Source: Arthrobacter citreus | GTDB taxonomy: Bacteria > Actinomycetota > Actinomycetes > Actinomycetales > Micrococcaceae | Assembly (NCBI RefSeq): GCF_038405225.1 | Contig: NZ_CP151657.1 | Span: 620,001 to 684,000, forward strand | DNA: 64,000 nt | Direction of reading: 5' to 3' | Part shown: piece by piece, positions 1 through 30,645 of the stretch | How the letters are laid out: each line of letters starts with the position of its first letter | Numbering within the stretch: the first letter of the stretch is position 1 | Translations under genes and position numbers: made by a program | Notes under the pieces: generated by a model | What the model was told of the DNA's origin: nothing | Databases searched by the model: none | The model's input: the letters and a program-made list of their open reading frames with translations, nothing else

Positions 1-707
1 ACCACGATCCGGCCTTCGAAGGCGATGCAGCGGGTGGAGCGGTCAAAGGTTTCTCCGCCCACGGGATCGTAGATGACGTCGGCGCCGCGTCCCCCGGTGG
101 CCGTGTTGACTACCTCCACGAAGTCCTCGGTGGTGCGGTTCACCACGATGTCGGCGCCCGCCTCTTCGGCGACCCGGCGTTTGGCTTCATTGCCAACCAC
201 GCCGATCACCCTGGCGCCGGCGGCCTTGCCCAGCTGCACGGCCGCCGTGCCAACACCGCCGGCGGCGGCATGCACCAGCAGTGTCTCTCCGGGGGCGATC
301 CGCGCCCGGCGGTGAAGGCCGAAGTACCCGGTCTGGTAACCGATGCACAGGGCCGCGGCCTCGGCGTCGGACAGGGATTCCGGGGCCGGGAAGACAGCTG
401 CCGCGGGAACCTGCACCTGCTCGGCCATCACGCCAAGATGCGAGGCAATCACGCGGTCACCGAGCGAAATCCCCGTGACGCCGTCGCCGATTGCCGTAAC
501 GGTGCCGCACAGCTCAATGCCCGGGATGAAGGGCAGCGCCGGTTTTTCCTGGTACAGGCCGCGGCAGAGCAGCACATCCGGGAAATTCAGGGCGACGGCG
601 CGGGTGGCCAGCACCACCGTGCCCGGCATGGCCTCGGGTGCGGGCAGTTCGGCCAGGTGAAGGGCATCGCGCGGTTCGGCGAGGGTGGTGACGTTCCAGG
701 CTTTCAT
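1..707 (-). CDS. NADPH:quinone oxidoreductase, MDR/zinc-type alcohol dehydrogenase superfamily (3' part beyond window)
   Basis: Probable medium-chain NAD(P)H-dependent quinone or enone reductase acting in the cytoplasm. The visible first ~235 residues start MKAWNVTTLAEP and contain the N-terminal GroES-like fold (GTVVLATRAVALNFPDVLLC, GDRVIASHLG). The Rossmann glycine motif follows (HAAAGGVGTAAVQLGKAAGA), with downstream sequence typical of quinone reductases (VGGETFDRSTRCIAFEGR). The zinc ligands of true alcohol dehydrogenases are not evident, which favours the quinone-reductase branch. The gene runs off the left edge, so the C-terminus is unseen. Its ATG overlaps the stop of the upstream TetR gene as ATGA, so the two are translationally coupled and probably co-regulated. 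The substrate is unknown. Confidence 0.88.
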   Translation of the reverse strand, partial: MKAWNVTTLAEPRDALHLAELPAPEAMPGTVVLATRAVALNFPDVLLCRGLYQEKPALPFIPGIELCGTVTAIGDGVTGISLGDRVIASHLGVMAEQVQVPAAAVFPAPESLSDAEAAALCIGYQTGYFGLHRRARIAPGETLLVHAAAGGVGTAAVQLGKAAGARVIGVVGNEAKRRVAEEAGADIVVNRTTEDFVEVVNTATGGRGADVIYDPVGGETFDRSTRCIAFEGRIV

Positions 708-1303
708 TCGGATGATCCTTCGGGTAGGGCGGGCCGCAGGCCGGCAAGGTACAGATCAGTCAGTTGCTTCGCGACCTGGTGCTTCGTCAGCGGCCCGGAG
801 GGCTGGTACCAGAACGAGAGGTAGTGCGGGTTGGCGAAAAAGTTGGCCACGAGGACGGCCGTCGGGATGTCGGTGCGGAAGATGCCCTCTTCGCGGCCGC
901 GGGCGATCAGTGCGCCGAAGACCTCGTTGTAGCGGCGGCGGCGGTCCTTCACGGCTTCCATCCGGTCGGGACTGAGCATGTGCTGGGACCGGAAGAATAC
1001 GGTGCCTTCACGAATCCAATCGATCGAGGTGACGATGACGTCTTCGCAGACCAGCCGGACGGTCTGCTCCACGGGCAGGCCGCGGGCCGTGATTTCGGTG
1101 AGGTTGTGGTGCTGCAGGGTGAGGATCCGGTCGTAGATGTCGAAGAGCAGATCATCCTTGGAATTGAAGTAGTGGTACAGGGCGCCCTTGGTGACGCCGG
1201 CGGCATCGACGATCTGCTGCACGCTGGTCCTGGCGTAGCCTTGGCTGGAAAAGAGCTCCACGGAAACGCGGGCCAGTTCTTCCTTGATGTTCATGGTCTT
1301 CAT
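704..1303 (-). CDS. TetR/AcrR family transcriptional regulator
   Basis: Predicted 199-aa DNA-binding repressor. The N-terminal helix-turn-helix is clear at residues ~10-50 (ARVSVELFSSQGYARTSVQ, then DAAGVTKGALYHYFNSKDD), with the GALYHYF recognition-helix core typical of TetR proteins. The C-terminal ligand domain is all-helical. I place the start at ATG 1303 (MKTMNIKEEL); ATG 1294 is possible. The reading frame stays open upstream to 1609, but that extension is Pro/Gly/Arg-rich, crosses a poly-G run and does not look like protein. The stop overlaps the quinone reductase start (ATGA), so the pair forms one operon. A near-palindrome at 1364-1377 just upstream is the best operator candidate for autoregulation. 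The inducer is unknown; regulators next to quinone or enoyl reductases often sense acyl-CoA or electrophiles. Confidence 0.9.
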   Translation of the reverse strand: MKTMNIKEELARVSVELFSSQGYARTSVQQIVDAAGVTKGALYHYFNSKDDLLFDIYDRILTLQHHNLTEITARGLPVEQTVRLVCEDVIVTSIDWIREGTVFFRSQHMLSPDRMEAVKDRRRRYNEVFGALIARGREEGIFRTDIPTAVLVANFFANPHYLSFWYQPSGPLTKHQVAKQLTDLYLAGLRPALPEGSSE

Positions 1304-1363
1304 GCGGGTGTTCCGTGTTTCTCGTGGAGTCTCGTGCCGGAATGCCGCCGGGTGAACCCGGGA

Positions 1364-1377
1364 ACCGACCGGTTGGT
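1364..1377. promoter_or_regulatory. Candidate TetR operator (near-perfect 14-bp palindrome)
   Basis: ACCGACC|GGTTGGT matches its reverse complement at 6 of 7 paired positions. It lies 61 bp upstream of the TetR start in a non-coding stretch. ACCGACCGGT-type palindromes are familiar for TetR-family regulators. A second inverted pair, GGTATG (1375-1380) and CATACC (1391-1396) with 10 nt between, abuts it. Assignment to this TetR is inferred from position only. Confidence 0.5.
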
Positions 1378-1481
1378 ATGTAGGGATCACCATACCGTCA
1401 CAATGCCCGATGTCCGCAAGGGTTTGGCGAAAGAATTCCCGCGGCTTCGGTATGGAAGGATGACCCTGCCGTGTCTTGCCG

Positions 1482-1492
1482 CCCCCCCCCCC
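1482..1492. repeat. Poly(C) tract, 11 bp
   Basis: Uninterrupted run of 11 C (G on the minus strand) in the intergenic region between the TetR gene and tRNA-Arg, about 180 bp upstream of the TetR start. Such homopolymers are prone to slippage. I see no coding frame it would switch if the TetR start at 1303 is right. The rest of 1304-1597 holds the operator candidate and no gene. Confidence 0.85.
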
Positions 1493-1597
1493 GCGGTGCG
1501 CGTGCTGGTAGCGTCCCGTTGCAATCGGTGCGTCAAGCTGCCCGGGGACGAATGCTTTGACGGGGGAACCGATGGTGGGGCCGGCCGGGGCCCGGGC

Positions 1598-1630
1598 AAA
1601 AGAAAACACCCCGGTCCGAAGACCGGGGTG
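1598..1630 (-). terminator. Rho-independent terminator of tRNA-Arg
   Basis: A perfect 10-bp stem (CACCCCGGTC 1607-1616, loop CGAA, GACCGGGGTG 1621-1630). On the minus strand it is followed by TTTTCTTTT (1606-1598). It lies directly downstream of the minus-strand tRNA. Confidence 0.9.
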
Positions 1631-1643
1631 CTGTCACTTGATA

Positions 1644-1719
1644 TGGTGCCCTCGATAGGATTCGAACCTACGGCCTGTTGCTCCGGAGGCAACCGCTCTA
1701 TCCCCTGAGCTACGAGGGC
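1644..1719 (-). tRNA. tRNA-Arg, anticodon CCG
   Basis: Read on the minus strand, the sequence folds into a complete cloverleaf: acceptor GCCCTCG/CGAGGGC, D-stem GCTC/GAGC, anticodon stem GTTGC/GCAAC with loop CTCCGGA, and T-arm containing GGTTCGAATCC. The anticodon is CCG, which reads CGG codons. The 3' CCA is encoded in the DNA at 1646-1644. A terminator follows at 1598-1630. Confidence 0.97.
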
Positions 1720-1828
1720 AAGGACGCCGGTAAACCGGCAGGTCCTGTGGGACTCAAGAAGCTTAGCAGGTCCGGCGCGCCGTGTGAAAACGTCCCCGGA
1801 TCATGCCGCGGAACGGGCGGTGTGGACG

Positions 1829-1875
1829 CCCCCGGGTCAGAGGCCCCCGGGCCAGAGGCCCTCGGGCCCCTCAGT
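1829..1875. repeat. Three imperfect ~15-bp tandem repeats
   Basis: The motif CCCCCGGGYCAGAGG occurs about three times in a row, the last copy degenerate, just downstream of and slightly overlapping the end of the minus-strand oxidoreductase (stop at 1871). The complementary CCCGGG and GGGCCC blocks can form GC hairpins on either strand. No T-run is present, so a terminator role is uncertain. Confidence 0.55.
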
Positions 1876-3418
1876 AGCCCAGGAAGGCATCCGTCCGGAC
1901 CGGGCGGCCGCCGGCGCGGCGGACCGCGGCACGGGCGGCAGCCACGGCGGCGGGGGATCCGGAAACGTATCCGGCGCGCCGCGAAATGTCCGGCACTGCG
2001 GAGGCCAGGGCTTCCGCGTCCGGGAGGCCGGGGCCAAGATACGTCCAGCCGCTGATCTGCGGGTCGGTGGGCGTGCAGACCAGGACACGGATGCCCAAAC
2101 GGTGCAGTTCAGCCGCGTAGGCCAGCTCATCCACCGAAGCGGCGGCATACACGAGGACGACGTCGCGCTCCACAGTCCCGGGACCTCTCCCGTCACCACC
2201 GGCAGCCAGCGAGCGCAGCTGGCTCATGAAGGGGGTGATGCCCACGCCGGAGGCGATCAGCAGCAGCGGGACCGTGCGGTCCCGGGGAAGCAGGAAGTCT
2301 CCGGCCACTGACGTCGCGGACACCACGGCGCCGGGCTTGAGCTTCAGCAGGGCGGTCTTGAACGAACTTGCCGGTTCGGCGGCCCGCAGCCCCACGGCAA
2401 CCGTGGCGGAATCCTGCGGAGCCGTGGTGAGGCTGAAGATCCGCCGGGTTCCCCGCGCGTCGGCCGTGCCGTGCGGGATGCTCAGTTCCACATACTGGCC
2501 GGGCTGGAAACGCAGCGGACGGGTCGGTTCAAACACCAGTTCGCGCGCGGTGGGGGTCAATGCGCGGTTCTCCCGCAGCCGCAGCCGGATCCCCGTGCGC
2601 GGAGCCAGGGCAAAGGCCAGCACATTGCCGGCCAGCAGGGCCAGCTCGGGGGACATGAAGACCGGGCCGGCGCTCAGCGGCACGGCGAACAGGACGCCGA
2701 CGACGCCGGCCTCCAGCAGGCGCTGCCAGCGCCGCGGGGGCAGGGTCAGCGGCTCGGACAGCATGAAGCCGGCAAAAAACACCACCGGGTAGGAAGCAAG
2801 TAGGATTCCCAGCGCCGTCGGAAGGGCCTCCCCGGCCATCACCATCCGCACGGTAATGATGACGCCGGCGGCGAGCAGGAACACTGCGGCCATCGGCAGC
2901 AGCCGGTTCCGGTACAGGATGACCGCAGCCGCCGGGAGCACGGCCACGAGCATCAGCGGCGCCGCCACCCACCACACGGCGGCACCCAGGCCGGTCAGCG
3001 CCAGGACCGCAGCACCCAGGGCTGCGGGATTAAAGATGTGCCGGCCGCGCCAAACCAGCAGGTACTTGGACACGGTGGCGGCACCGGCGGCCAGTGCCAC
3101 GGTAAGCAGAGCGGATCCCTCGGTGCTGGGCCACAGCAGGAAATAGAGCAGCAGCCCGGTGATGAGCGAAGAATCCGTCTGCGGCCGGGTGCGGAAAAGC
3201 AGCCCCATGACGCGGCTGGCGACAAGGGCGGAGACGACGGCGGTGGCTGCGGTTGCCGCCAGCTCGGACGGGGTGAAGGCGAGCGCCCCGGCGAAGGAAA
3301 GCACAAATGACCAGGCGGTGACGGCCAGCAGCAGGATCACCGTCAGCCGGTACATCGTCCAGCGGCCGGTGAAGGCGTCCAGCCGGCGGGTAACCGGCGC
3401 GGGCAGGGAAAGACTCAT
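1871..3418 (-). CDS. RnfD/NqrB-like membrane domain fused to an FNR-type FAD/NAD(P)H oxidoreductase domain
   Basis: A 515-aa predicted transmembrane electron-transfer protein. Residues ~20-285 hold about eight or nine hydrophobic helices resembling the RnfD/NqrB family (RRLDAFTGRWTMYRLT, GRHIFNPAALGA, LLASYPVVFFAGFMLSEPLT). Residues ~290-515 form a ferredoxin-NADP reductase-like module: flavin motif RRIFSLTTAP, nucleotide motif SGVGITPFMSQL, and terminal FLGY. The likely role is to take electrons from cytoplasmic NAD(P)H and pass them across the membrane to the flavinylated protein encoded two genes upstream. The start overlaps the apbE stop as ATGA. The physiological acceptor is unknown. Family assignments are from recognisable motifs; the electron path is inferred from gene context. 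Confidence 0.85.
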   Translation of the reverse strand: MSLSLPAPVTRRLDAFTGRWTMYRLTVILLLAVTAWSFVLSFAGALAFTPSELAATAATAVVSALVASRVMGLLFRTRPQTDSSLITGLLLYFLLWPSTEGSALLTVALAAGAATVSKYLLVWRGRHIFNPAALGAAVLALTGLGAAVWWVAAPLMLVAVLPAAAVILYRNRLLPMAAVFLLAAGVIITVRMVMAGEALPTALGILLASYPVVFFAGFMLSEPLTLPPRRWQRLLEAGVVGVLFAVPLSAGPVFMSPELALLAGNVLAFALAPRTGIRLRLRENRALTPTARELVFEPTRPLRFQPGQYVELSIPHGTADARGTRRIFSLTTAPQDSATVAVGLRAAEPASSFKTALLKLKPGAVVSATSVAGDFLLPRDRTVPLLLIASGVGITPFMSQLRSLAAGGDGRGPGTVERDVVLVYAAASVDELAYAAELHRLGIRVLVCTPTDPQISGWTYLGPGLPDAEALASAVPDISRRAGYVSGSPAAVAAARAAVRRAGGRPVRTDAFLGY

Positions 3419-4281
3419 GAAAACAGGACTCCAGCCATGGCATCTGAGAAGGTGGCCCGGCCGTCCGAGAACATCCGCACGTAGTCAAACGCGAATTCCT
3501 CGGCCAGCCGGGCAGGATCAGTGAAAAATAAGGCGGTGGCCAGCCCGTCCGCCGTCATGGCGTCAGCGGCCAGCACCCAGGTGGCGGCCACCCGCTGGAC
3601 CGGCCGGCCGGTGGAGGCATCCAGGATATGGTGCAGTCCGTCGCCCCAGGTTCGCCGGTTTCCCGCGGACGCGCACATTGCACGGTCCTGCAGCGGCACA
3701 ATGCCAATGGCCCGCGTGGTGTCATACGGATGCTCCAGCGCAACCCGCAGGCTGGCAGCGCCTGCGTGCCGCAGGTCCGAACCGGCGTCCACCGTGAGCT
3801 CCCGGTGACCGGCGGAGTGCAGCAGCTCGAAGACCAGGTCCACCAGCTGGCCCTTGCCGGCGGCGCCGATGTCCAGGGTCGCCGGAATCGTGGTGTTCAG
3901 CTGCACCCTGCCGCCGGTGCTTTCCCAGGACACGGCCGCGGCCCAGTCCGGTGCCGGCACCGGCCCGGAGCCGGCAAAGGAATAGGCGGCGTCGTACCCG
4001 AGCTTTTCCAGGGAATGCCCCACCAGGGGATTAACGGCCCCGCCGGATAACCGGTGCAGGCTGTCGAACAGGGACAGCAGCGGTGCCGCTGAGGGCGGCA
4101 GATCCACGGTTCCGGCCTCCCGGGTCAGTGCGGTGATGACCGAATCGGAGCGGAACCTTGAATAAGTGCGGTCATAGTCCTCAACGAGGTCCGCCACGGC
4201 GGCCCGGACCGGTGCGGCAAGCGGTTCAGCCGTGGTGATGGTCCACGCGGTGCCGATGGCATCGAATCTCGTCTCCGGCAT
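3415..4281 (-). CDS. apbE: FAD:protein FMN transferase (ApbE family)
   Basis: A 288-aa ApbE-type flavin transferase that covalently attaches FMN from FAD to a Ser/Thr of target proteins. Recognisable elements include the N-terminal MPETRFDAIGTAWTITT strand, DRTYSRFRSDSVI, the Gly/Asp-rich core VDAGSDLRHAG, and the late family motif ASAGNRRTWGDGLHHILDA followed by STGRPVQ. I see no signal peptide, so modification may occur on the cytoplasmic side, as is known for some ApbE proteins. It lies between the putative target (FMN-binding protein, 11 nt upstream) and the membrane oxidoreductase (4-bp overlap downstream), which strongly suggests a dedicated maturation role. Confidence 0.92.
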   Translation of the reverse strand: MPETRFDAIGTAWTITTAEPLAAPVRAAVADLVEDYDRTYSRFRSDSVITALTREAGTVDLPPSAAPLLSLFDSLHRLSGGAVNPLVGHSLEKLGYDAAYSFAGSGPVPAPDWAAAVSWESTGGRVQLNTTIPATLDIGAAGKGQLVDLVFELLHSAGHRELTVDAGSDLRHAGAASLRVALEHPYDTTRAIGIVPLQDRAMCASAGNRRTWGDGLHHILDASTGRPVQRVAATWVLAADAMTADGLATALFFTDPARLAEEFAFDYVRMFSDGRATFSDAMAGVLFS

Positions 4282-4292
4282 GGCGCGGCAGT

Positions 4293-4775
4293 TTAGTTCG
4301 CGGCTTCGGAGCGGATGGTGTCCAGGGCCTTGTTGAAACCGGAACTGGTAAGGGATGAACCGCCCACCTTGTCCACGTCCAGCTCGTCGAGGTTTTTGCC
4401 GACCACCTGCTCCTGCACCTTGGAGGTGAAGTCGCGCTGGTGCATCTTCGAGGTGGGATGGTTGCCGGAGGTTTCGACCTGAAGCTCCGTGACCACGCTG
4501 TCCTTGAGGGTCAGCGTGACGTCCACCTCCTCGGTCTGGTTCGACGGCGGGGTGTAGCTGCCCTGGGCCGAGTACTCGCCGTCGGCGTAGGCGCCGGCCG
4601 CGGCACCGTCCTGGGGTGCGGCGCTTTGGGGTGCGGCACTCTGGGGTGCAGCCGTGGCCGCGGCGGAGGACTCCTGCGCGGCGGGTGCCTCATCGGCGGC
4701 CGGTCCGGCGCAGGCGGTGGAAGCCAGGGTCAGGGACGCGGCGGTGAACAGCAGTGTCTTGCGGGTGTGGTTCAT
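4293..4775 (-). CDS. Exported FMN-binding domain protein (probable flavinylated electron carrier)
   Basis: A 160-aa secreted protein. The N-terminus has a basic start, a hydrophobic core and Cys22 (LASTACAG), a non-classical lipobox that would make it a lipoprotein. An Ala/Pro/Gln-rich linker with repeats (APQSAAPQSAAPQ) spans ~25-62. The FMN-binding domain occupies ~65-160. Near the C-terminus VDKVGGSSLTSSGF aligns with the family's SGAT-type flavinylation motif; Ser141 would be the FMN acceptor, a Ser in place of the usual Thr. A good ribosome site (AGGAGAG) precedes ATG 4775. It is the first gene of the apbE/oxidoreductase operon. Flavinylation is inferred from the motif and neighbours. 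Confidence 0.85.
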   Translation of the reverse strand: MNHTRKTLLFTAASLTLASTACAGPAADEAPAAQESSAAATAAPQSAAPQSAAPQDGAAAGAYADGEYSAQGSYTPPSNQTEEVDVTLTLKDSVVTELQVETSGNHPTSKMHQRDFTSKVQEQVVGKNLDELDVDKVGGSSLTSSGFNKALDTIRSEAAN

Positions 4776-4872
4776 TTCTCTCCTGGAGATGGGGGCAGCA
4801 GGCAGACCGGAGGAAGCCCGGTGAGGTGTCCCTATCCATTACAACGTATTCAGCGCAACGCTGCCTGTGAGC

Positions 4873-4953
4873 AGGTGCGCGGGGGACGGCACAGCGGACG
4901 GCACCGCGGACGGCGCGGGGGACGCTGTGGGGGACGCCGCGGGGGACGTCACA
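4873..4953. repeat. Degenerate G-rich tandem repeats
   Basis: Units of roughly 12 bp built around GCGGACGGC and GGGGGACG recur about six times in the 218-bp space between the divergent FMN-binding gene and argS. The unit length drifts. Local slippage is the simplest origin. The AT-richer patch at ~4835-4860 probably contains the promoter of the minus-strand flavin operon, but I cannot place clear hexamers. Confidence 0.5.
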
Positions 4954-4981
4954 GTTCGCGGAACCGCAGGTGAGACGAGGC

Positions 4982-4987
4982 TATGCT
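4982..4987 (+). promoter_or_regulatory. -10 element TATGCT, leaderless argS promoter
   Basis: TATGCT is followed by exactly 6 nt and then the GTG start at 4994, so transcription would begin at or next to the start codon. No Shine-Dalgarno sequence is present. No convincing -35 hexamer is visible. The same element and spacing (TATGCTnnACCGGTGA) recur upstream of the ADP-ribosylglycohydrolase gene. Confidence 0.6.
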
Positions 4988-4993
4988 TAACCG

Positions 4994-6643
4994 GTGACTC
5001 CTGAAGAACTTTCCTCCGCCGTAACTGCCTGCCTCCAAGACGCCATCGATGCCGGTGATTTCAGCATCGACGTGCCCCGGGAGGTGCGCGTGGAGCGGCC
5101 GAAGAACCGGGACCACGGTGACTGGGCCACCAACATCGCCCTGCAGCTGTCCAAGCAGGCCGGCATGAACCCGCGCCAGTTCGCGGAGATCCTCAAGGGC
5201 CGCCTCGAGAAAATCGACGGCGTGGCCAAGGTGGACATTGCCGGTCCCGGCTTCCTGAACATCACCCTCGACGCCGGTGCCGCCGGCGAGCTGGTCAAGA
5301 CGATTGTCGACGCCGGACCGGAGTACGGCACCTCGGAGATCCTCAAGGGAACCCGGATCAACCTCGAGTTTGTCTCGGCCAACCCCACCGGACCGATCCA
5401 CCTGGGTGGAACCCGCTGGGCCGCCGTCGGCGACGCCCTGGCCCGGATCTTCGAATCGCAGGGCGCCGAGGTGACCCGCGAGTACTACTTCAATGACCAC
5501 GGTGCGCAGATCGACCGTTTTGCCCGTTCCCTGCTGGCCTCCGCGAAGGGCGAAGCCGCTCCCGAGGACGGCTACGCCGGCGCCTACATCGAGGACATCG
5601 CCAACCGCGTGCTGGCAGCGGAGCCGAACATCATGGAGCTGCCCGACGCCGAGGCGCAGGAACGCTTCCGCGCGGTGGGCGTTGACTTCATGTTCACGGA
5701 CATCAAGGAATCCCTGCACAACTTCGGCGTGGACTTCGACGTCTTCTTCCACGAAGATTCCCTCCACGAAAACGGCCAGGTGGACAAGCTCCTGGAACAG
5801 CTCAAGGGCTCCAAGAACCTGTACGAGAAGGACGGCGCCTGGTGGCTGAACTCCACCGAGTTCGGCGACGACAAGGACCGCGTGGTCATCAAGTCCGACG
5901 GCAAGGCCGCCTACATCGCCGGTGACATTGCCTACATCCAGAACAAGCGCGACCGCGGCTTCGACCTGAACTTCTACATGCTGGGCGCCGACCACCACGG
6001 CTACGTTGTCCGCCTGAAGGCCGCTGCCGCAGCGCTGGGCCACGACCCGGCCTGCGTTGAGGTGCTGATTGGCCAGATGGTCAACCTGGTCAAGGACGGC
6101 AAGCCCGTGCGCATGTCCAAGCGTGCCGGCACCGTGGTGACCCTGGAGGACCTGGTGGACGCGGTGGGCGTTGACGCCGCCCGCTACACGCTGGCCCGCT
6201 TCTCCGCGGACTCCAACATCGACGTCGACCTTGACCTGCTGACCAAGCGCAGCAACGAGAACCCGGTGTTCTACGTCCAGTACGCCCATGCCCGCACCTA
6301 CGCCCTGGCCCGCAATGCCGAAGCCGCCGGTGTGGATGACTCAGCATTTGACGCGTCCCTGCTGACGCACCCGACCGAGGGCGAGCTGCTCGCCGCACTG
6401 GGACAGTTCCCCGGCGTCGTCGCGCAGGCCAGCGCGTTCCGCGAACCGCACCGCGTGGCCCGGCACCTGGAAGTCATCGCCGGCACCTACCACCGCTGGT
6501 ACGACGCCTGCCGCATCGCCCCCCAGGGCGACGAGGAGATCACCGACGTCAACCGCACGCGCCTGTGGCTGAACCTTGCCGCCCGGACGGTCCTGGCCAA
6601 CGGCCTGGACCTGCTGGGAGTTTCCGCTCCGGAACGGATGTAA
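4994..6643 (+). CDS. argS: Arginyl-tRNA synthetase
   Basis: A 549-aa class I aminoacyl-tRNA synthetase that charges tRNA-Arg. The N-terminal additional domain occupies residues ~1-110. The catalytic HIGH-like motif is seen in [19 protein letters not shown] and the KMSKS-like loop in [11 protein letters not shown]. The anticodon-binding helical domain at the C-terminus ends with [10 protein letters not shown], the typical ArgS ending. Length is normal. The start is GTG with no ribosome-binding site, consistent with a leaderless transcript. It heads the argS-lysA-hom-thrC-thrB cluster; lysA follows after 3 nt. Confidence 0.97.
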
Positions 6644-6646
6644 TCA

Positions 6647-8101
6647 ATGACTGTTTCCCCCCTCGCCCCCGGCTGGCTCAGCTACCCGGCGGACGCGAAT
6701 GCCCTGCGCCCGCAGATGTGGGCGCGCGACGTGACCCGGAACGACGGCGGCGAACTGGAAATTGCCGGTGTTTCAGTCTCCGCGCTGGCGAAGGAGTTCG
6801 GCACGCCGCTGTTCGTGGTGTCCGAGGCTGACTTCCGGGCCCGTGCCCGGGACTTCAAGGATTCCTTCGACGCCGCGTTTGCCGACCTCTGCGGGGGAGT
6901 GGATGTCTACTACGCCGGTAAGGCCTTCCTGTGCACCGAAGTGGCCCGCTGGGTGGCCTCCGAGGGACTGCGCCTGGACACCTGCTCCGGCGGGGAACTG
7001 GCGGTGGCCCGCCGGGCCGGCATTCCGGGTGCGGCCTTGGGGCTGCACGGTAACAACAAGTCGGACGCGGAGCTGACCCGTGCCCTGGACATGGGGCTGG
7101 GCCGGATTGTCGTGGACAGCCTGGCCGAACTCCAGCGGCTCGGCGCCCTGGCGGCATCGCGCGGCGAGCAGGCCAACGTCATGCTGCGGCTGACCCCGGG
7201 CGTGCACGCCTCCACCCACGAGTTCATTGCCACCGCGCATGAGGACCAGAAGTTCGGGCTGTCCATGGCACCGGACCCCGAAGCCGGGGACAGGTCGCCG
7301 GCGGAAACCGCAGTGGCTGCCGCCCTGGCACACGAAGGCATCCGCCTGCTCGGGCTGCACTGCCACATCGGCTCCCAGATCTTCGAGGCTGAGGGCTTTG
7401 AGCTCGCAGCGCAGCGGCTGCTGGGTTTCCTGGCGGAGATCAAGGCGGTGCACGGCGTCGAGCTGCCCGAGCTGGACCTTGGCGGCGGTTACGGGATTGC
7501 CTACACCGAGGCCGACGCCCCGCGCCCGCCGGCCGAGATTGCCAAGGCGATGGCCGCCGTCGTCGGCTCCACCTGCGCGGAGCTTGGACTGGCCGTGCCG
7601 CGGATTTCCATCGAACCCGGCCGCGCCATTGCCGGCCCCACCACCTTCACCCTGTACCGCACCGGAACGATCAAAACCGTGCGCGTGGACACTGACGGCG
7701 GCGGAACCTCCGAACGCCGGTACGTTTCGGTGGACGGCGGGATGAGCGACAACGCCCGTCCGGTGCTTTACGACGCCGATTATTCGGCCGTGCTCGCATC
7801 GCGTGCGTCCGAAGATGACGCGGTTATGTCGCGCGTGGTTGGCAAACACTGCGAGAGCGGGGACATAGTGGTTCGGGACGTCTACCTGCCGGCGGACACC
7901 TCCGACGGCGATCTGTTGGCCGTTCCCGGCACCGGTGCGTACTGCTGGGCGCTGGCCAGCAACTACAACTACATTGCCCGGCCGCCCGTCGTCGCCGTCC
8001 GGGACGGCGCTGCCCGGCTGATTATCCGCGGCGAAACCGAAGACGATCTGCTGGCCCGGGACGTTTATGCCTCCCACCAGCCCGAAACGCCAGAGGAGTA
8101 G
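6647..8101 (+). CDS. lysA: Diaminopimelate decarboxylase
   Basis: A 484-aa PLP-dependent fold-III enzyme that converts meso-diaminopimelate to L-lysine, the last step of lysine synthesis. The PLP lysine is K92 in VYYAGKAFLC. The family glycine-rich and substrate motifs LDLGGGYGIAY and IEPGRAIAG are present, as are CESGDI and the C-terminal GAYCWALASNYN with its active-site Tyr. ATG 6647 lies 3 nt after argS, so the two are cotranscribed. The argS-lysA-hom order is common in actinobacteria and links arginyl-tRNA supply to aspartate-family synthesis. Confidence 0.97.
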   Translation: MTVSPLAPGWLSYPADANALRPQMWARDVTRNDGGELEIAGVSVSALAKEFGTPLFVVSEADFRARARDFKDSFDAAFADLCGGVDVYYAGKAFLCTEVARWVASEGLRLDTCSGGELAVARRAGIPGAALGLHGNNKSDAELTRALDMGLGRIVVDSLAELQRLGALAASRGEQANVMLRLTPGVHASTHEFIATAHEDQKFGLSMAPDPEAGDRSPAETAVAAALAHEGIRLLGLHCHIGSQIFEAEGFELAAQRLLGFLAEIKAVHGVELPELDLGGGYGIAYTEADAPRPPAEIAKAMAAVVGSTCAELGLAVPRISIEPGRAIAGPTTFTLYRTGTIKTVRVDTDGGGTSERRYVSVDGGMSDNARPVLYDADYSAVLASRASEDDAVMSRVVGKHCESGDIVVRDVYLPADTSDGDLLAVPGTGAYCWALASNYNYIARPPVVAVRDGAARLIIRGETEDDLLARDVYASHQPETPEE

Positions 8102-8108
8102 GCACCAT

Positions 8109-9407
8109 ATGAAGACCCTGAAAGTTGCCCTGCTGGGATGCGGAAACGTTGGCTCCCAGGTTGCCCGGATCCTTCTCGACGACGCCGAAGACCTGGCCTC
8201 GCGCACCGGAGCCCGGCTGGAGCTGACCGGCATCGCAGTCCGTAACCCCGACGCTCCCCGCGACGTTGACCTGCCGAAGGAACTGTTCACCACCGACGCC
8301 GAAAAGCTGGCGGAGAACGCTGACATCGTCATTGAGCTGATGGGTGGCATGGAACCGGCCCGCACGCTGATGCTCCACGCCATCGGCCACGGCGCGTCGG
8401 TGGTCACCGGCAACAAGGCCCTGCTGGCCGCCGACGGCGCCGCGCTGTTCCAGAAGGCGGACGCCGCCGGCGTCCGGCTGGCCTACGAAGCCGCCGTGGC
8501 CGGAGCCATCCCGATCCTGCGCCCCATCCGGGACAGCCTCTCGGGTGACCGCATTACCCGCGTGCTGGGAATCGTCAACGGCACCACCAACTACATCCTG
8601 GACGCCATGGACACCACCGGGGCGCAGTTCGCCGACGCCCTGGCCGAAGCCCAGCGCCTGGGCTACGCCGAAGCCGATCCCACCGCCGACGTCGAGGGCC
8701 ACGACGCCGCCGCCAAGGGCGCCATCCTCGCGTCGCTGGCCTTCCACACCAATTTTGACCTGGCCAACGTTTCCTGCGAGGGAATCTCCGCGGTCACCGC
8801 CGGCGACATAGCCGCCGCGAAAGACGCCGGGTTTGTCATCAAGCTGCTGGCCATTGCGGAAAAGCTGGAGAACGACGGCGAACCGGGCGTCAGCGTCCGC
8901 GTGCACCCGACGCTGCTGCCGCGCACCCATCCGCTGGCCGCGGTCCACGGCGCGTTCAACGCCGTGTTCGTGGAGGCGGAAAACGCCGGAGAGCTGATGT
9001 TCTACGGCCAGGGCGCGGGCGGTGCGCCCACCGCCTCCGCCGTGATGGGCGACGTCGTCAGCACCGCCCGCCGGCTGGTGCTTGGCGGTCCGCTGGGCGC
9101 CGAGACGCCCACCGGACACGTTCCGGCCCTGCCGTTCGAGAAGGTGACCACCAGCTACAGCATTGGCCTGGAGGTCACCGACCAGCCGGGCGTGCTGGCC
9201 GCCGTGGCCCGGGTGTTCGCCGAAAACGGCGTCTCCATCGAAACCATGCGCCAAACCATCCACAGCGACGGCGCCGGAACAGCCGCGGAACTGCGCTTTG
9301 TCACGCACCGCGCGTCCGAAGCCGCGCTGGCAGCAACCGTCGAGGCCATCAAGGGCCTGGACGTCATCAATTCCGTCACATCCGTCCTGCGGGTAGAAGG
9401 GGTCTAA
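8109..9407 (+). CDS. hom: Homoserine dehydrogenase
   Basis: A 432-aa enzyme that reduces aspartate semialdehyde to homoserine. The NAD(P)-binding motif [12 protein letters not shown] is at residues ~8-20, followed by the catalytic core ([50 protein letters not shown]). A C-terminal ACT domain begins near residue 355 ([20 protein letters not shown]), consistent with threonine feedback control in this family. ATG 8109 has a strong GAGGAG site at the end of lysA and so beats the upstream in-frame starts. The stop lies 4 nt before thrC. Confidence 0.97.
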
Positions 9408-23858: not shown

Positions 23859-24665
23859 TTGATCGCGCTTGCACTCCCGGCCACTAATGAAGGTGGATTC
23901 GTTCCGCCGGCCATTGACGAAATGCACCTCCCTGAGATTTTCCCGTGGGGCGCCGAGTACGGAACCGGTGTTGGCAAGCAGATGCTGCTGGTCTTCATCT
24001 CGGTCATCATCATCGCCGTGTTCTTTATCCTCGCTTCCCGCAAGGGGAAGCTTGTGCCGGGGCGGCTGCAGTTCCTGGGCGAATTCGGTTACGGCTTTGT
24101 CCGTAACGGCATCGCCAAGGACGTGATTGGCGAGAAGGACTTCCTCAAGTTTGTTCCTTTCCTCTTCGCGCTGTTCTTCTTCATCATCGTCAACAACATT
24201 TACGGAGCCATTCCGTTTATCCAGTTGCCGAGCTTCTCCCATCCGGGCGGAGCCTACCTGCTGGCCGCGATCGTCTACTTCACGTGGATCGGTATCGGCA
24301 TCAAGAAGCACGGTATGAAGTACTTCGTGATTGCCACCGTTCCTTCGGGCGTGCCGTGGTACATCCTTCCGGTTTTGGTACCGATCGAAATAATCTCCAA
24401 CTTCCTGGTCCGGCCGATCACGCACAGCCTGCGTCTGTTCGCCACCATGATGTCCGGACACCTGATCATCATGCTCGCCGGCGCCGGCATTGAATACCTC
24501 CTGGTCCTCCAGGACAACATCCTGCTCCAGGCCTCTTCAGTGCTGGTGCTGGGCGGCGGTATCGCCATGTACATGCTTGAAGCGCTGATCATGGTGCTCC
24601 AGGCCTACGTTTTCACCCTGCTGACCGCCATTTACATCCAGGGCGCGCTGGCGGACGATCACTAA
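23859..24665 (+). CDS. atpB: F1Fo ATP synthase subunit a
   Basis: A 268-aa integral membrane stator subunit forming the proton half-channels. About six helices are seen. The essential Arg is in the conserved helix [14 protein letters not shown], with other conserved patches at HLPEIFPWG near the N-terminus and [12 protein letters not shown]. The start is TTG 23859 with an AGAGGAAA ribosome site at ideal distance. The weaker TTG start may help keep subunit a at 1 copy against ~10 c subunits (inference). Two hairpins separate it from atpE. Confidence 0.97.
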
Positions 24666-24705
24666 GCTTCCCTTCCGGGAACCCAAGCTTCCCTTCGGGG
24701 AAACC
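24664..24705 (+). other. Duplicated hairpin pair upstream of atpE
   Basis: Two direct-repeat copies of AAGCTTCCCTTC each form a 5-bp hairpin TTCCC/GGGAA. The first (24668-24681) has loop TTCC. The second (24689-24702) has loop TTCG closed by C-G, the very stable cUUCGg tetraloop. They fill the atpB-atpE gap, where E. coli has a translation-enhancing region for atpE. Confidence 0.8.
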
Positions 24706-24748
24706 CCAAGCAACCTGCCCTCAGGGCATCTTGAAAGGAAAAATGAAC

Positions 24749-24961
24749 ATGGAAATCACGGGTAGCCTCAACGCAATCGGCTATGGCCTCTCCGCTATCG
24801 GCGGCGCCATCGGCGTGGGCCTTGTCTTCTTCGCCTACATCAGCGGCGTTGCACGCCAGCCGGAGGCACAGCGCGTCCTCCAGCCGATCGCCTTCCTGGG
24901 TCTGGCACTGACCGAAGCACTCGCTATTCTTGGTCTGGTTCTCGCGTTTATTCTTGGCTAA
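24749..24961 (+). CDS. atpE: F1Fo ATP synthase subunit c
   Basis: A 70-aa hairpin subunit of the rotor ring. Helix 1 contains the Gly-rich [15 protein letters not shown]. The polar loop is ARQPEA (RQPE at 36-39). Helix 2 carries the ion-binding Glu56 in [10 protein letters not shown]. The lack of Na+-type ligands suggests a proton-driven ring. ATG 24749 has AAAGGA at good spacing; ATG 24743 (adding MN) sits too close to it. Hairpins just upstream may boost its expression relative to subunit a. Confidence 0.95.
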
Positions 24962-25000
24962 TCCCAGCCGACCGACCAACCAAGCAGATAGGACGGGTGA

Positions 25001-25551
<551 letters not shown>

Positions 25552-25552
<1 letters not shown>

Positions 25553-26367
25553 TGGCAGGAGTATCGAGCGAATCACTCGCCGTGGCACATGAGCAGCTGG
25601 AAGCCAAGCTTCCGCTTGCTTCGCTGTCACTGGCAGAGGAACTCTTTGGAATCCTGGGCGTCCTCGACAGCAGCGCCGGTATCCGGCGCGCGCTGACCGA
25701 TCCCGCCCGTCAAAGCGATGCCAAGGCGGCGCTGGTTTCACAGCTGGTACGCGGCAAGGTTTCGGCTCAGGCCGAGACCATTGTGGCGGATCTGGTCTCC
25801 TCGCGTTGGCGGTCTCCGCGTGACTTGGGTGATGCGCTCGAGGAACTGGCTGCCACTGTTGTTTCAGCAACGGCAGAAAACAGGGGATCGGGCCTTGCCG
25901 GTCTCGACTCCCTGGAAGATGACCTCATCCGGTTCAACCGGGCGGTAGCTTCCAGCCACGAGCTGCAGCGGGCACTGTCGGAGCCACAGGCATCGCCTGA
26001 GGCAAAGATCGCCCTGGCCGAGAAGCTGGTGCCCGGGGCAAGCCCCGAAGCACTGGTCCTCATCCGCCAGGCAGTCACGCATCCGCGTGGCCTGAAGCCC
26101 AGTGCCCTTGTGGCACGCTTCCTGGAGCTCGTCGCCGGGCGCCAGAAGCGCTGGATCGCCGAGGTTCGGGCCGCCCGTCCGTTGACCCAAGAGCAGCTTT
26201 CGCGTCTGCAGTCCTCTCTTAATGGACTCTACGGCCGTGAGTTGAAGATCAACGCCGACGTTGACCCGTCACTGATCGGCGGCGTGCGGATCGCAGTGGG
26301 GGACGAGATACTGGATTCATCAGTAGTTTCCCGTCTGTCCGACCTCCGTCGGAAGCTCGCGGTCTAA
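25552..26367 (+). CDS. atpH: F1Fo ATP synthase subunit delta
   Basis: A 271-aa OSCP/delta subunit connecting the peripheral stalk to F1. It is about 90 residues longer than E. coli delta (177 aa), as expected for actinobacteria. The C-terminal half has the family pattern (AEVRAARPLTQEQLSRLQ, DPSLIGGVRIAVGDEILDSSV, LSDLRRKL). A separate atpF is present, so this is not the mycobacterial b-delta fusion. ATG 25552 overlaps the atpF stop. Confidence 0.95.
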
Positions 26368-26383
26368 CCGTCCCCCGGGACGG
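26368..26383 (+). other. Intercistronic stem-loop, atpH-atpA
   Basis: CCGTCC pairs with GGACGG across the loop CCCG (26368-26383), starting 1 nt after the atpH stop. No T-run follows. It is one of several hairpins in the gaps of this operon. Confidence 0.6.
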
Positions 26384-26469
26384 CAGGGACCAGTTCAAGA
26401 TCATTTGAGAATTAATCACGGTCATCGGCACCAAGCGATGATCACAACACAGGAGAGCAGGGACTGCAG

Positions 26470-28107
<1,638 letters not shown>

Positions 28108-28117
28108 CGCCTTTGTA

Positions 28118-28156
28118 GTTCCGCGTCCGGGCCCCTCAGGGATCCGGACGCGGAAC
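28118..28156 (+). other. Intercistronic stem-loop, atpA-atpG
   Basis: A perfect 13-bp stem (GTTCCGCGTCCGG 28118-28130; CCGGACGCGGAAC 28144-28156) encloses a 13-nt loop that can pair internally (CCC/GGG). No T-run follows, and three CTAG tetranucleotides occur within the next 40 nt. It is too GC-rich and long to be chance, but not a classical terminator since the operon continues. Confidence 0.8.
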
Positions 28157-28209
28157 CCTAGGCCTTTGCCTTAGCCCCTAGTAGAACGCTAGGAACTGAA
28201 AGGAAAAGT

Positions 28210-29103
28210 ATGGGAGCCCAAATTCGGGTCTACCGTCAGAAGATCGCTTCGACGACGTCGATGCAGAAGATCTTCAAGGCGATGGAGCTGATTGCTGCCT
28301 CTCGCATTGGAAAGGCACGCACCCGTGTGGCTGCGTCATTGCCGTACTCCAATGCGATCACCCGTGCCGTTTCTGCTGTGGCGTCCCAGTCGGAAATCGA
28401 CCACCCGCTGACTACCGAGCCGGAGAACATCCGCCGGGCAGCCATGGTGATCCTGACCTCCGACCGTGGTCTTGCTGGTTCGTATTCCGCCAGTGTGCTT
28501 AAGCAAAGCGAATCCTTGGCCGAACTGCTCCGTGAAGAGGGCAAAGAGGTCAAGACCTACCTGGTGGGACGTAAGGCGCAGGCGTACTACGACTTCCGTG
28601 ACCGCGAATCTGCGCGTGTCTGGACCGGAAATACCGATGCACCGGACTTTGAAACCGCCCGCGAAATCGGCCGGGCCCTTCTTGATGACTTCAACACCGA
28701 CTACGAAGACGGCGGCGTGGACGAGATCCACATTGTCTACACGCGCTTCAAGTCAATGGTTGTCCAGGAACCCACGGTGATCCGCCTGCTTCCGCTGGAG
28801 GTGGTGGAGGAAGAAGCGAAGTCCGAGACTGAGCTGCTGCCTCTCTACGAATACGAGCCCGAGCCCGAAAAGGTTCTTGACGCACTGCTGCCGCGCTACA
28901 TCGAGTCGCGCATTTTCGCAGCCATGCTTCAGGCAGCCGCTTCCGAGCTTGCCGCCCGCCAGCGCGCAATGAAGTCCGCCGGGGACAACGCCAGCGACCT
29001 TATTAAGAAGTACACGCGACTTCGCAATAACGCCCGCCAGGCCGAGATCACCCAGGAACTGTCCGAGATTGTGGCCGGTGCCGACGCGCTCAGCGCGTCC
29101 TAG
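28210..29103 (+). CDS. atpG: F1Fo ATP synthase subunit gamma
   Basis: A 297-aa central-shaft subunit. The N-terminal helix [21 protein letters not shown] and the C-terminal helix ([18 protein letters not shown], then [12 protein letters not shown]) form the rotating coiled coil; between them lies the Rossmann-like foot domain ([19 protein letters not shown]). ATG 28210 follows GAAAGGAAAAGT. Normal length for the family. Confidence 0.97.
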
Positions 29104-29163
29104 CTCCAGCACGATTCCAGGCGTAGTTCCACCAGAAGCAAACTTAGTCCACACGCCATCTAA

Positions 29164-30645
<1,482 letters not shown>

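Follow-up and report, generated by a model that had tools for sequence, protein, structure and literature searches.

A conserved FMN_bind, apbE and membrane-reductase operon in Arthrobacter citreus, with an ApbE that lacks an export signal

What do three tightly packed genes of Arthrobacter citreus achieve together, and on which side of the membrane does their flavin become attached? We examined a trio in a 64,000-nucleotide stretch of this genome (contig NZ_CP151657.1, positions 620,001 to 684,000; hereafter the window, in whose numbering all coordinates are given). The genes lie head to tail on the minus strand: an FMN_bind gene (4775-4293, 160 aa), apbE (4281-3415, 288 aa) and a gene fusing a membrane domain to a reductase (3418-1871, 515 aa). 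Open reading frame coordinates and domain identities confirmed the compact operon proposed in an earlier reading of the sequence alone (the sequence-only reading), with 11 nt between the FMN_bind stop and the apbE start (4282..4292) and an ATGA overlap between apbE and the fusion. The trio is a real, intact and conserved operon of an already published system. From its protein sequences, we think it quite likely that it forms one NQR/RNF-like flavin system working as a minimal unit for electron transfer from NAD(P)H to the outside.

The operon, its proteins and its conservation

The first gene (4293..4775, minus strand) encodes a Sec/lipoprotein-type signal without a twin arginine, an Ala/Gln/Ser-rich linker and an FMN_bind domain at about residues 64-160, and the protein has the FMN_bind fold. 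Throughout, signals and lipidation sites were judged from hydrophobicity and the lipobox rather than with SignalP. By the lipobox rule, Cys22 (codon 4710..4712, lipobox STAC) is the predicted lipid-anchor cysteine; its invariance among 39 aligned sequences arises by construction, because the rows were picked with a lipobox-based start. The sequence-only reading had called the protein exported and secreted: the export signal stands, and the protein is rather a predicted lipoprotein. Across the 79 named-genome loci that hold the whole trio (see below), the parser placed lipobox and start in 72, and inspection added five (L041, L066, L077, L079, L098), leaving one sequence masked by N (L054) and one with no lipobox in its frame (L064). 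Hydropathy over 12 residues reached 1.5 or more in 74 of 78 FMN proteins from these loci; the four low values trace to mis-picked cysteines (L041, L050, L066) and to L064.

Within the domain, DKVGGSSLTSS (residues 135-145, 4341..4373, minus strand) resembles a flavinylation motif, with Ser141 (4353-4355) as the presumed acceptor of flavin mononucleotide (FMN). Ser140 and Ser141 are invariant in the 39 sequences, and SSL occurs in 79/79 trio loci. Of the 77 motifs that were parsed, 34 begin with Asp; with two more read by eye the count is 36/79. Of the ordinary Ser-type motif previously claimed, the conserved serine pair survives and the canonical form does not, as it departs at two positions. 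A first Foldseek listing for the FMN protein gave nothing at E ≤ 0.001, with IscU-type chains on top; a second look gave matches.

The fusion comprises an NqrB/RnfD-like membrane half (residues 1-275, 2594..3418, minus strand) and a C-terminal half of the ferredoxin-reductase superfamily (residues 276-515, 1871..2593, minus strand), a presumably cytosolic flavin adenine dinucleotide (FAD)/NAD(P)H reductase. Foldseek first listed only reductase-type chains in its top 50, and a second look matched the membrane half to RnfD. The chain matches PF00175 (E 3.6e-05, 24.8 bits against a cut-off of 22), as do 21 of 23 aligned fusions at E ≤ 0.01. The covalent-flavin motif [ST]GA[ST] is absent from the window's membrane half and from the first 300 residues of all 23 fusions. 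The absence of Rnf/Nqr partners noted earlier held genome-wide for PF02508 (RnfA/E, NqrD/E), with 0 matches; NqrA was not searched. A ferric-reductase-type (PF01794) match in the same genome fell below cut-off.

To describe the distribution of the trio, we used three samples. The first comprised 59 genomes, from near relatives and from the window's organism itself, and here the fusion was present in 29/29 of the same genus (28 uninterrupted, one, G013, in two frames). In the rest of the family 1/8 genomes had it, with 42% identity, and 0/22 genomes of the order carried it at full length. ApbE was present in 29/29 genus genomes and in 2/8 others of the family, one of which (G035) lacks the fusion. 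All 30 same-genus or same-family loci held the trio. At the G013 locus (L029; genome 94% complete), apbE and the fusion are each split into two frames, through sequencing error or decay. A scan of named genomes yielded at least 559 confirmed relatives, of which the best 80 were kept; among the matches listed, Arthrobacter proteins are the named ones that resemble the fusion most closely. In 79 of these best 80 loci the FMN gene, apbE and the fusion follow one another in this order on a single strand, and the 80th (L096) begins inside apbE at a contig end. The sequence-only reading would have counted it as a refutation if homologues of the fusion consistently stood without FMN-binding and ApbE partners; in 30/30 and 79/80 loci the trio is there. 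All 80 loci bear actinobacterial names except L077 (WNZI01000018.1, labelled Vibrio cholerae strain 35D), where a trio with a fusion 50% identical to that of the window has the divergent neighbours of an Arthrobacter locus; it is most likely an Arthrobacter-type contaminant in the Vibrio assembly.

In a phylum-wide draw of 396 genomes, own genome included, the whole fusion matched in eight; 55 genomes matched in all, and the remaining 47 were listed with the reductase half only. One of the eight (L175, G353) holds a divergent trio in which a single TAA separates the early membrane part of the fusion from what follows, reflecting a pseudogene or an error. Seven further loci from this draw were viewed with longer flanks, and GSSLT was found in five. 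The other two, L173 and L174 from outside the class, have TVTGATNTS or TVSGATNTS in a protein whose N-terminus is hydrophobic. This protein was assigned from the motif together with a weak match (E 0.11-0.12), and the ApbEs of both loci showed no signal on inspection.

An ApbE without an export signal

The second gene (3415..4281, minus strand) encodes a FAD:protein FMN transferase (PF02424, E 2.1e-40) that starts directly at the catalytic core, with no signal peptide. It aligns with solved FMN transferases across the His/Asp catalytic region and is the single ApbE of the genome. A signal peptide hidden by a misplaced start was ruled out: the Arg/Gly-rich in-frame stretch upstream contains no ATG, GTG, TTG or CTG, and only one ATC, 25 codons up. 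As a control, E. coli ApbE (Ftp) starts with a signal of the lipoprotein type (FFVGC, Cys20), and its counterpart of the conserved Gly-Thr is preceded by 33 more residues. Maximum N-terminal hydropathy over 12 residues was 2.68 for E. coli ApbE, 0.83 for the window ApbE and 1.71 for the window FMN protein.

Hydropathy and inspection revealed no ApbE signal peptide at any of the 79 trio loci from named genomes, where at most 46 residues could precede the core. Four ApbEs reached 1.5 or more (L052, L060, L065 and L080, with extensions of 8, 8, 8 and 24 residues), and these values stem from the core itself or from a short run rich in Ala. At L043, L067 and L107 the true start was not identified, because the short, hydrophilic stretch between the FMN gene end and the ApbE core has no ATG, GTG or TTG. 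ApbE likewise starts without a signal in the 30 same-genus or same-family loci, judged by eye only. A leaderless ApbE beside an exported presumed substrate was missing from the sequence-only reading, and it is the testable part of the locus.

Leaderless ApbE extends more widely than the NQR/RNF-like system. An ApbE-centred survey of the class (best 30 loci, from 121 ApbE-bearing genomes among 197) gave a hydrophobic ApbE N-terminus in 0/30 (maximum 1.22) and, within flanks of up to 1.5 kb, a canonical-motif protein in 0/30. Because these loci therefore showed no exported substrate, we made a search centred on FMN_bind, which yielded 30 loci from the 79/197 genomes with a match. In 29/30, a canonical-type motif occurred in a protein whose N-terminus is hydrophobic, a figure favoured by our taking the most hydrophobic possible start. 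A two-round hidden Markov model search found an ApbE frame in 23/30 of these loci, where an earlier regular-expression search had found 0/30. With one partial frame (L192) and one misplaced start (L197) left out, 0/21 had a hydrophobic N-terminus (maximum 1.35). In these class loci (L183-L212), the FMN_bind proteins adjoining leaderless ApbEs often have an N-terminal membrane anchor of a common type, in which a hydrophobic segment comes after MRR or MKR.

Where, then, would the flavin be attached? Passages of PMC9973259 describe Sec-exported proteins as needing an extracytosolic cofactor supply, with FAD exported by EetB (PF07456). This known FAD-export subunit had no match in the genome, where another exporter is possible. 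An ApbE without a signal in a genome without EetB makes cytosolic flavin attachment before export possible. We give even odds to the proposal that in actinomycetes leaderless ApbE loads FMN onto the precursor in the cytosol, and that the FMN-bearing chain is then exported, as a Sec/lipoprotein substrate here and as membrane-anchored proteins elsewhere. According to parts of PMC12052999, cytosolic ApbE serves the soluble fumarate reductase of Klebsiella and also occurs in trypanosomatids. The same source reports that ApbE minus its first 20 residues, retained in the cytosol, failed to complement an apbE mutant, which weighs against a simple pre-export model. If true, flavinylation before export would make a FAD exporter unnecessary and would run counter to the view that flavoproteins exported by Sec have to receive their flavin outside. 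No statement on leaderless actinobacterial ApbE was found in the open-licence literature searched, although supplementary tables may record one. It has been assumed that FAD is exported first and the flavin then attached outside; the leaderless enzyme turns this assumption into an answerable question, and the locus offers a clean case for where actinobacterial flavinylation happens.

Direction of electron flow and the gene neighbourhood

In the mechanism we favour, ApbE would transfer FMN from FAD to Ser141 of the lipoprotein, which would sit at the cytoplasmic membrane on its outer side. Within the fusion, the C-terminal reductase half would oxidise cytosolic NAD(P)H through FAD. The electrons would then cross the RnfD-like membrane half, probably by way of a flavin held there non-covalently, and reach the FMN covalently attached to the lipoprotein, which would pass them to an extracytoplasmic acceptor. 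What we observe is the anatomy; from it we infer the covalent flavin, the NAD(P)H donor, the outward direction, the separate acceptor and the site of flavin attachment. The minimal transmembrane electron exporter of the sequence-only reading remains the best account of anatomy and conservation, with transfer and flavinylation as its inferential part, and the same proposal is already in print. Such a minimal transmembrane flavin wire would be a tractable model for RnfD-type electron movement, because it needs one membrane protein and one lipoprotein as against the six subunits of Nqr.

Several observations weigh against this assignment. DKVGGSS does not match the published D-x-x-[S/T]-G-A-[S/T], having Gly for [S/T] and Ser for Ala, and a leaderless ApbE fits poorly with the usual picture of extracytoplasmic flavinylation. 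Furthermore, the NqrB/RnfD subunit serves the inward return limb in both Nqr and Rnf, and homology therefore does not by itself imply outward flow. The profiles PF04205 and PF03116 matched none of the window's own proteins, and PF03116 matched nothing elsewhere in the genome; because both miss, the survey definition given in PMC8238504, as far as its available text goes, would overlook the locus.

These points feed two rival explanations. The chain might run inward, an extracytoplasmic donor reducing the FMN-lipoprotein and the fusion then reducing NAD(P)+ or a carrier in the cytosol, in the manner of the RnfG-RnfD-RnfC limb. The membrane half does match RnfD, which in Rnf belongs to the limb from outer FMN to the cytosol. 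Parts of PMC11334425 describe a semicircular electron path for Nqr. A donor enzyme is not apparent, however: no gene family was common to every type of flank, and no obvious extracytoplasmic dehydrogenase was present among nine scanned neighbours, the others not being scanned. The published proposal for systems of this kind runs outward, and reduction of NAD(P)+ would be uphill from a flavin near -184 mV (the SaFMN3 value in the available part of PMC12052999). We regard inward flow as unlikely.

Slightly less probable still is that the GGSS change and the leaderless ApbE mark a lipoprotein that is no longer covalently flavinylated and binds flavin loosely or has another role, while ApbE acts on a cytosolic protein. 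The departure from Dxx[S/T]GA[S/T] and the inconstant first Asp would fit, as would the cytosolic ApbE and substrate of Klebsiella fumarate reductase (PMC12052999, in part). Yet the sole ApbE of the genome is encoded beside the FMN gene, an adjacency kept in 79/80 named loci, the serine pair is invariant, ApbE accepts Ser (PMC12052999, in part), and leaderless ApbEs also adjoin FMN_bind proteins with canonical motifs. Outward transfer to a covalent FMN remains our preferred explanation.

The flanks gave no clue to the acceptor. Divergent from the trio lie reading frames 4994-6643 and 6647-8101, which are putatively argS and lysA. Neighbours whose ends resemble these two frames (clusters 3 and 4) stand divergent in 40 and 36 of the 80 loci; flanks differ in other loci. 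The nine scanned neighbours comprised a GT87 glycosyltransferase, an OYE-type oxidoreductase, a NAD(P)H-hydrate dehydratase, an aldo/keto reductase, an M4 peptidase, a lactate/malate dehydrogenase, a DUF4129 protein, a glycine transporter and one protein without a match; no VIT1-type transporter was among these nine. With variable flanks and uninformative scanned neighbours, a conserved fourth gene naming the acceptor was dropped as a candidate. Iron or redox control gave no signal either: over the 250 nt upstream of 71 FMN genes, the mean best mismatch to box consensus patterns was, for real against plainly shuffled sequences, 9.32 versus 9.08 (IdeR), 9.63 versus 9.58 (Fur), 6.01 versus 6.25 (Rex) and 8.17 versus 8.19 (SoxR-like). 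Downstream on the same strand follow a tRNA-Arg (1719-1644) and a TetR-type regulator; Rfam at gathering thresholds found nothing beyond tRNA in window positions 1-9000. Elsewhere, positions 24001-30000 have a GC content of 0.60-0.62, against 0.64-0.71 across most of the remaining window.

Comparison with known systems

The pairing of an outer flavoprotein with a RnfD-type domain recalls the RnfG and RnfD limb of Rnf. Unlike Rnf, the genome has no RnfA/E-type protein, the NAD(P)H site lies in a fused FNR-type domain and not in RnfC, and the fusion has no Fe-S cluster, since it holds one Cys only. The corresponding parts of Na+-NQR are NqrF, NqrB and NqrC; here the reductase lacks a [2Fe-2S] domain, the membrane half lacks the covalent flavin motif, and NqrD/E-type proteins are likewise absent. 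Extracellular electron transfer in Listeria (FmnB, PplA, EetB/FmnA) also uses a flavinylated protein, PplA, as outer electron carrier of a Gram-positive cell. There, unlike here, the transferase FmnB lies outside the cytosol and depends on EetB/FmnA to export FAD (PMC9973259, in part); the window has a leaderless ApbE and the genome no PF07456.

The closest counterpart is the NQR/RNF-like flavinylation system defined from genome surveys in PMC8238504 (eLife 2021), whose available text counts 127 clusters, mainly in Actinobacteria and the candidate phyla radiation. Electron transfer from NAD(P)H to the outside, with an unknown acceptor, is already proposed in the available parts of that paper and of PMC11334425 (mSystems 2024); the latter adds a model of the Ktedonobacter complex, the lack of a covalent flavin site in the membrane half, and electron flow in the outward direction. 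As far as these descriptions reach, the window trio shares the extracytosolic FMN_bind subunit, apbE, the NqrB/RnfD-type domain fused to PF00175 and the membrane half without a covalent flavin site. Its apbE and FMN_bind genes lie within five genes, and at least one product carries a signal or lipidation site. No discussion of where ApbE resides in this system was found in the available text of either paper. The window member differs from the published set, as there described, in falling below Pfam thresholds, in its GSS serine motif and in its leaderless ApbE. The published count is probably low, because 17 of the 23 aligned fusions have no PF03116 match even at E 0.01. The trio of A. citreus is a further example of an architecture already in print, not a new one.
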